36,605 nucleotides of DNA from Acidobacteriota bacterium (GTDB lineage: Bacteria; Acidobacteriota; Aminicenantia; UBA2199). Made by a program: the position numbers and the translations under genes. Numbering within the stretch: the stretch's first letter is position 1; every line of letters starts with the position of its first letter. A model generated the notes under the pieces. It worked only from the letters and a program-made list of their open reading frames with translations. It did no database searches and had not been told where the DNA came from. The stretch is taken from NCBI GenBank assembly GCA_018897435.1, contig JAHIKI010000093.1:1-36605 (forward strand). The letters are read 5' to 3'. Of this stretch, positions 35,754 to 36,605 are shown piece by piece.

Positions 35754-35890
35754 TGTAGGGGCGACCCGGCGGGTCGCCCTGTATTGATCGTGTCCGGTGT
35801 CCGGATCAGGGCGACCCGCCCCCTGCGAGGACGGACAAATCAGATCCGCCAAGGTCGGCAGATGATTTGTGCGGCCGGGTCGCCCCTACA
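35754..35890. repeat. 137-bp MITE-like element with 17-bp terminal inverted repeats
   Basis: The ends TGTAGGGGCGACCCGGC (35754-35770) and its exact reverse complement (35874-35890) are perfect inverted repeats. A second 14-bp inverted repeat lies inside (35768-35781 and 35807-35820), plus ACAAATCA / TGATTTGT (35835-35842 and 35863-35870). There is no ORF of its own and no clear target duplication. It shares its outer sequence with 22551-22596. Confidence 0.65.
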
Positions 35891-35912
35891 TAAAGATGAT
35901 CCATCCCCCAGC

Positions 35913-35938
35913 CCTCTTCTCTTCCCGAAGAGAAGAGG
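35913..35938. repeat. Perfect 12-bp hairpin CCTCTTCTCTTC / GAAGAGAAGAGG
   Basis: Two bases separate the arms. With the next hairpin (35950-35973) it forms a purine/pyrimidine-rich repeat unit bounded by CCCCCAGCCC and GGGTTGGGGTGAG. Confidence 0.6.
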
Positions 35939-35949
35939 AGCGGGACTTA

Positions 35950-35973
35950 CCCCTCTCTTTGGGAAGAGAGGGG
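35950..35973. repeat. Perfect 10-bp hairpin CCCCTCTCTT / AAGAGAGGGG
   Basis: A 4-nt loop (TGGG) separates the arms. It adjoins the 35913-35938 hairpin and probably belongs to the same dispersed repeat. Confidence 0.6.
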
Positions 35974-35999: not shown

Positions 36000-36016
36000 T
36001 GTCCCAAAATGGGACA
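36000..36016. promoter_or_regulatory. Enhancer-like palindrome 1, TGTCCC-AAAAT-GGGACA
   Basis: A perfect 6-bp dyad with a 5-bp centre, about 264 bp upstream of the predicted sigma-54 start site. It is the first of three copies. The format is like the NtrC-type site TGCACC-N5-GGTGCA. Confidence 0.75.
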
Positions 36017-36071
36017 CATATTTTTGCCCGCATTCCAGGTCTGGACAGAGTTTCTGCCTTTTCTCCCCGGC

Positions 36072-36088
36072 TGTCCCGAAACGGGACA
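36072..36088. promoter_or_regulatory. Enhancer-like palindrome 2, TGTCCC-GAAAC-GGGACA
   Basis: The arms are identical to copy 1 but the centre differs, so the arms are what is conserved. It lies about 192 bp upstream of the predicted start site. Confidence 0.75.
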
Positions 36089-36152
36089 CTTTCGGGCTAT
36101 AGTTTGGAAAGGCTTGTTCGCGCTGCGTTTCCGGTTATTATGGTGTTCCATC

Positions 36153-36169
36153 TGTCCCAAAATGGGACA
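36153..36169. promoter_or_regulatory. Enhancer-like palindrome 3, TGTCCC-AAAAT-GGGACA
   Basis: Identical to copy 1. It lies about 111 bp upstream of the predicted start site, a normal distance for a sigma-54 activator site. Confidence 0.75.
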
Positions 36170-36245
36170 TAATGGAATATTGGTAATAAATCGCCGTTTC
36201 CTTCAAAGCCATGGCAGACAATGTTTTTGGGGCGACGATTCCATT

Positions 36246-36260
36246 TGGCACCGCAATTGC
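36246..36260 (+). promoter_or_regulatory. Sigma-54 (-24/-12) promoter
   Basis: TGGCAC (36246-36251), 5 bp, then TTGC (36257-36260). The GG and GC dinucleotides are exactly 10 bp apart, and the flanks (T before, TTT after) also fit the consensus. Transcription should start near 36272, about 100 nt before the ATG at 36375. It requires RpoN and an AAA+ activator. Confidence 0.8.
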
Positions 36261-36374
36261 TTTGTGAAATTCTCATATTGAATGTGATTGATATTTCTCT
36301 GTCTGCTTGGCTTCATTTCAACGGCGGTAGCTTGCCTATAGAAATCTGTAGTTGACTTTATTAATGAGGAAAAA

Positions 36375-36605
36375 ATGCTGATCCAATCGATCAAAGACAG
36401 TATCTGGGATTGCATCAAGGATAAAGAGGTCGCGCTGTTCATGATCTTCAGCGACCAGGGCGAGATCCTCTGGCACCAGGGCCGCGGGGTCAGGGGCCGA
36501 AACATTATAGACGGCAAGGGCTTTTGCCGCAGTTACTGCCTGGAGGCCCTGAAAAAAAACCGAGAAATTGCCGAGGTTGATTGCCTGATCAATCTCAACG
36601 GTCAC
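36375..36605 (+). CDS. 5' part of a sigma-54-controlled gene, cut by the window end
   Basis: 77 codons are open to the window edge. GAGG lies 5 nt before the ATG. The product begins M-L-I-Q-S-I-K-D and contains A-L-F-M-I-F-S-D-Q-G-E-I-L-W-H-Q-G-R, R-N-I-I-D-G-K-G-F-C-R-S-Y, and several Cys. I do not recognise a domain with certainty. It looks like a small ligand-binding or sensor N-terminus, as could precede the AAA+ domain of a sigma-54 activator. If so, the gene may be autoregulated. That is a guess until the rest is seen. Confidence 0.7.
   Translation, partial: MLIQSIKDSIWDCIKDKEVALFMIFSDQGEILWHQGRGVRGRNIIDGKGFCRSYCLEALKKNREIAEVDCLINLNGH

Follow-up and report, generated by a model that had tools for sequence, protein, structure and literature searches.

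The window analysed here, a stretch of 36,605 bp, is the full extent of contig C63 of a Candidatus Aminicenantes MAG (G000; 2.19 Mb, 60%-complete) belonging to an uncultured genus, and its forward strand ends in a compact control module followed by the start of a gene. Three operators, all matching TGTCCC-N5-GGGACA with zero mismatches, occupy positions 36000-36016 (distal, TGTCCCAAAATGGGACA), 36072-36088 (middle, TGTCCCGAAACGGGACA) and 36153-36169 (proximal, again TGTCCCAAAATGGGACA) of the + strand. Since the outer bases of the 5-bp centre also pair (A-AAA-T, G-AAA-C), the operator arms are effectively 7 bp long. A sigma-54 -24/-12 promoter follows on the same strand at 36246-36261 (TGGCACCGCAATTGCT; -24/-12 element TGGCACCGCAATTGC at 36246-36260), with the GG and GC of the -24/-12 present, a match to TGGCAC-N5-TTGC and a score of 0.97. 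With the predicted start set 12 bp past the -12 GC, the operator centres lie at about -264, -192 and -111, the distal one being at -252 and the proximal one at -99 when counted from the -12 GC itself. A ribosome-binding site, GAGG (36366-36369, +), stands 5 bases before an ATG at 36375, from which 77 codons of a bEBP gene run to the contig end (36375-36605, +). An earlier note on this DNA had proposed a sigma-54 control module consisting of three such palindromes at these distances from a near-perfect -24/-12 promoter, with a good ribosome-binding site behind it; the palindromes were correct to the base, the distances came out at the same figures when recomputed, the promoter and ribosome-binding site were confirmed, and the reading as a sigma-54 control module is supported, operators and sigma-54 promoter recurring together in the genome and its relatives. 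Directly upstream of the module, positions 35754-35969 hold nested inverted repeats with a REP-like mobile or structural look, made up of TGTAGGGGCGACCCGGC and its complement 103 bp apart and of a further TCTCTTCCCGAAGAGA pair.

The remainder of the window gene was located on contig C21 (L143:2-1246), which shares a 58-bp exact overlap with the window and brings the protein to about 472 aa. Pfam recognises its AAA+ domain as Sigma54_activat (E 8e-58 on G000:C21, and also present in orthologs), and the activator loop reads GSFTGA, a variant said to retain activating ability (PMC4641369). The domain and loop that the earlier note looked for beyond 36605 are thus in place; the Fis-type HTH that it also looked for was not recognised, Pfam giving no HTH_8 in two full-length orthologs and the C-terminus giving a weak profile match to Fis HTH (hhalign probability 62%). 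Downstream on C21 lie genes for a 52-aa cysteine-rich GG-leader peptide (ELTSAEMEEVTGG-QPVMGCACCWCNP...), a radical SAM protein, a beta-propeller protein, a C39-peptidase ABC exporter and an HlyD-like adaptor, a predicted biosynthesis and export cluster for a small modified peptide (RiPP). The radical SAM protein of G000 scored 177 bits for the TIGR04148 system (cut-off 300), its best NCBIfam match being CcpM at 302 bits, below the cut-off of 500, and the GG-leader precursors fell under the TIGR04149 cut-off at 19.6 and 17.1 bits vs 25. In the congener G015 the genes after a similar activator encode another GG peptide and a radical SAM maturase scoring 407 bits, above the TIGR04148 cut-off, and the exporter is 91% identical to that of G000. 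The cluster adjoins the serC region in G000, G013 and G015 (truncated in G011), and its interior varies from genome to genome, as though cassettes had been exchanged. When L143:1500-7809 is set against L083:3-5395, the activator (66%) and exporter (91% identity) are conserved and the peptide and radical SAM genes differ.

The module recurs in the genome. G000 holds nine exact sites, vs about 0.13 expected by chance for an exact 12-base palindrome in 2.19 Mb and none for a reversed-pattern control, and all nine are confined to four clusters. Each cluster comprises three sites, some of them carrying one or two mismatches, and is accompanied by a sigma-54 promoter on the same side. Exact-site counts in 16 genus genomes and in nine genomes from other genera of the same family gave exact sites in 15 of the former and in none of the latter. 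From the genus we drew a set of 41 clusters with 112 sites passing a filter, the clusters not being independent, with many promoters orthologous and the set coming down to about four operon families and a few singletons; three sites were present in 32 clusters, two in seven and one in two (within the filter). Spacing between sites ranges from 66 to 82 bp (mean 74 +/- 4 bp across the 41 clusters), and in 39 clusters the distance between the -12 GC and the centre of the proximal site falls at either 96-100 or 106-111 bp; in the other two the proximal site had failed the filter. These two distance groups (about 98 vs 109 bp) differ by about one helical turn. The -24/-12 promoter is conserved at the 41 clusters, and the TGTCCC/GGGACA arms are kept in nearly all 112 sites. 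The middle base of the centre is A in 98 of 112, and the symmetry of the arms does not extend to the centre, which reads AAAAT or AAATT toward the promoter in 84 of 112. The pattern is shared by no fewer than four unrelated operon families. In seven congeners a relaxed pattern hit almost nothing but members of such clusters, among them, in G002, a cluster not seen before that proved to belong to a class-B operon (see below) with its own TGGCAC-N5-TTGC. Operators and promoter together make up a predicted genetic switch of near-fixed geometry, found at about four places per genome in this genus, and such near-constant geometry (three sites, about 98 or about 109 bp, an oriented centre) offers a natural series for studying enhancer looping. 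The relaxed pattern also picked out a further two-site cluster at G013:C47:40350-40433.

A scan of 85,000 species genomes, in which two tandem sites were required, returned 53 tandem loci. Strong sigma-54 promoters, taken at a score cut of 0.88, stood beside the sites at the Aminicenantes loci vs about 1 of 41 other loci, and one Aminicenantes locus (L074) scored 0.87, slightly under the cut; among the genomes scanned, the combination of tandem sites with a nearby sigma-54 promoter is essentially confined to the Aminicenantes group. The co-occurrence anticipated in the earlier note for the genome and its relatives is repeated, at four clusters in G000 and 41 in the genus, with sigma-54 promoters adjoining. 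Tandem palindromes in Burkholderiaceae, Coriobacteriaceae, Ruminococcus and others were set aside as unrelated, having no strong adjacent sigma-54 promoter apart from one borderline exception. Groups of as many as 10 TGTCCC-N5-GGGACA palindromes within 8 kb, without sigma-54 promoters, occur at L036, L046, L042, L054 and L078 in Cupriavidus, Caballeronia, Clostridia and Ruminococcus, with differing cores (GACTT, TCCGA, ACGGT, AAGTC). The earlier note would have counted a genome without rpoN against the module; on the surface this is what was seen, rpoN (Sigma54_DBD) not being found in the 60%-complete G000 MAG, yet of the 12 other genomes of the genus that were tested, 11 carry Sigma54_DBD.

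The genes behind the switches fall into four recurrent classes, some of the class A and class B proteins being characterised by sequence reading alone. The class A operon encodes a CarboxypepD_reg-like protein, a receiver-domain protein, a protein of about 210 aa and a predicted ABC permease/ATPase pair, and the class B operon a protein of about 70 aa with CPKCG-type cysteines and another of about 210 aa without family matches; the neighbours of the class B operon in L011 include a histidine kinase and two putative solute-binding proteins. Class C is a stand-alone AraC-type HTH protein of about 118 aa, present in many congeners, and class D is the window gene; singleton targets were found at L012, L109 and L111. 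In several congeners a gene for a hybrid histidine kinase (PAS-GAF-PAS-HK-REC; L092:7576-10059 and orthologs) ends directly upstream of the class A operators, and this kinase could feed the same pathway.

The best candidate for the reader of the sites is P0004 (G000:C6), an NtrC-type response regulator in which REC, AAA+ and HTH_8 are all present, together with its kinase. Both genes lie tail-to-tail with a site-bearing class A operon at 10 of 10 loci that are contiguous and take in the site cluster (tail-to-tail HK-RR loci: L010, L081, L092, L101, L112 and L184-L188). An ortholog of P0004 at 67-94% identity occurs in 14 of 16 congeners, vs at most 48% outside the genus; in G004 and G009 sites are present and P0004 was not found, the contigs breaking at that locus. 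Within the genus the recognition helix reads ISR[ST]SLYRK, and in the family outgroups, whose best matches to P0004 reach 44-48%, Pro replaces the genus Ser/Thr in this helix. One outgroup, G020, keeps the kinase-regulator-transporter locus and is missing the sites. Linkage and distribution thus point to P0004 as the protein that would bind TGTCCC-N5-GGGACA.

It is less probable, though still deserving of some weight, that the sites are read by a different activator of the genus, either the C95 orthogroup or one absent from our inventory, in which GAFTDA variants were included. Within the genus, the response regulator of C95 shows 81-84% conservation, and two outgroup genomes yielded no reciprocal best hit for it, a distribution that would suit a genus-specific reader, but it and its kinase adjoin a NuoF/hydrogenase-type redox operon without TGTCCC sites, and it was rejected as the reader for having no sites nearby. 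Of the other genus-wide activators, C13, C64 and C51 are matched by orthologs at 60-66% in each of the two outgroups, and for C92 one outgroup has an ortholog at 68%; no exact site occurs in those outgroups. Autoregulation, in which the window gene product would activate its own sites through a divergent DNA-reading C-terminal domain and control the other clusters as well, we consider improbable. A sigma-54 activator does follow the sites immediately in G000, G013 and G015, and its C-terminus aligns weakly to Fis HTH as described above, but close orthologs (66-77%) occur in just 3 of 16 congeners vs exact sites in 15 of 16, and on this distribution the gene was rejected as a universal reader. 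Moreover, the C-terminus varies, its putative recognition helix differing among the three genomes, whilst the sites are near-identical, and the 66% paralog G013:C26 and 43-49% homologs are without such sites upstream. The earlier suggestion that the driven gene is the activator itself is supported in so far as it encodes a sigma-54 activator, and not supported as regards its activating these sites; because it is missing from most site-bearing genomes, the window activator is probably a target of the sites and not their reader. Repressor operators, too, typically show perfect inverted repeats, and an A-rich centre could bend DNA, so that the palindromes would fit a repressor or nucleoid protein, but three regularly spaced sites at about -260 to -98 that never overlap the promoter have the geometry of enhancers, and we regard this last possibility as very unlikely.

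We therefore favour, with a probability of roughly 0.68, the reading that the window module serves as enhancer and promoter within a small sigma-54 regulon spanning the genus, one that would be read by phosphorylated P0004 and whose output at the window would be a second activator. A stimulated histidine kinase would phosphorylate P0004 (REC-AAA+-Fis HTH), dimers of which would bind the three TGTCCC-AAAAT-GGGACA operators and assemble into a hexamer that loops to the sigma-54 polymerase waiting at the -24/-12 element. The output at the window would be the sigma-54 activator without a recognised HTH that forms the first gene of the predicted RiPP cluster, giving a two-tier activator cascade. 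P0004 would also drive the class A operon adjoining its own gene (CarboxypepD_reg protein, receiver protein and ABC transporter), the operon for the short Cys-containing and ~210-aa proteins and, in many congeners, the AraC-type HTH protein. More tentatively, the arrangement may be a genus-specific cascade in which a response regulator reads an orientation-locked triple operator and switches on an atypical HTH-less activator that is exchanged with RiPP cassettes beside serC, a fuller picture that we think more doubtful than not. For an uncultured genus this defines a regulon whose operator, promoter geometry and regulator are predicted and can all be tested in a heterologous reporter, and the data suggest that peptide natural-product clusters of Aminicenantes are under sigma-54 control via a family of activators in which no HTH is recognised.

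The regulon belongs to a known type, its less usual part being the proposed cascade, in which the peptide cluster's HTH-less activator is itself a target. The NtrC enhancer, TGCACC-N5-GGTGCA, occurs in multiple copies upstream of sigma-54 promoters, and the sites described here share its 6-bp arms, N5 spacer and presence in several copies; unlike it, and as the earlier note had pointed out, their arms are TGTCCC/GGGACA, so they do not match the NtrC operator. The glmY promoter of Enterobacteriaceae has three putative QseF sites with the consensus TGTCN10GACA (PMC8745638), and GlrR/QseF-glmY resembles the Aminicenantes system in combining a sigma-54 promoter, three upstream TGTC...GACA palindromes and an NtrC-type response regulator with its kinase. 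The spacing differs, however, TGTC-N10-GACA there being replaced here by TGTC-N9-GACA with a conserved CC/GG, the Aminicenantes targets are protein operons as opposed to the glmY small RNA, and P0004 is only a general NtrC-family relative. Comparative genomics of Desulfovibrio found sigma-54 regulons of mostly one to four operons per activator, and three groups of activators there have TGT/ACA half-sites 9, 11 or 12 bp apart (PMC4641369); TGT-N11-ACA applies here too, in differing organisms and with different regulators, and the main text of that paper has no TGTC or GGGAC string. No description of the motif or regulon was found in the literature searched, in keeping with the earlier view that it may be undescribed. 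PMC7910581 reports a sigma-54 system that controls natural-product genes, there of the polyketide and non-ribosomal peptide kinds; the cluster here is of the radical-SAM GG-leader type and its own activator gene is the sigma-54 target. With TIGR04148/TIGR04149 systems the cluster shares a GG-leader peptide, radical SAM maturase, C39 ABC exporter and beta-propeller protein, but its peptides score below the TIGR04149 cut-off and a sigma-54 activator heads it. In another genus, a 64-aa cysteine-rich GG-leader peptide (MKQKRTNKLRLTKATVDNLSDAEMAKNMGG...; L149:256-450) is encoded near a homolog of the window activator, and at L157, L160 and L161 further homologs have C39-ABC or radical SAM genes in their vicinity.
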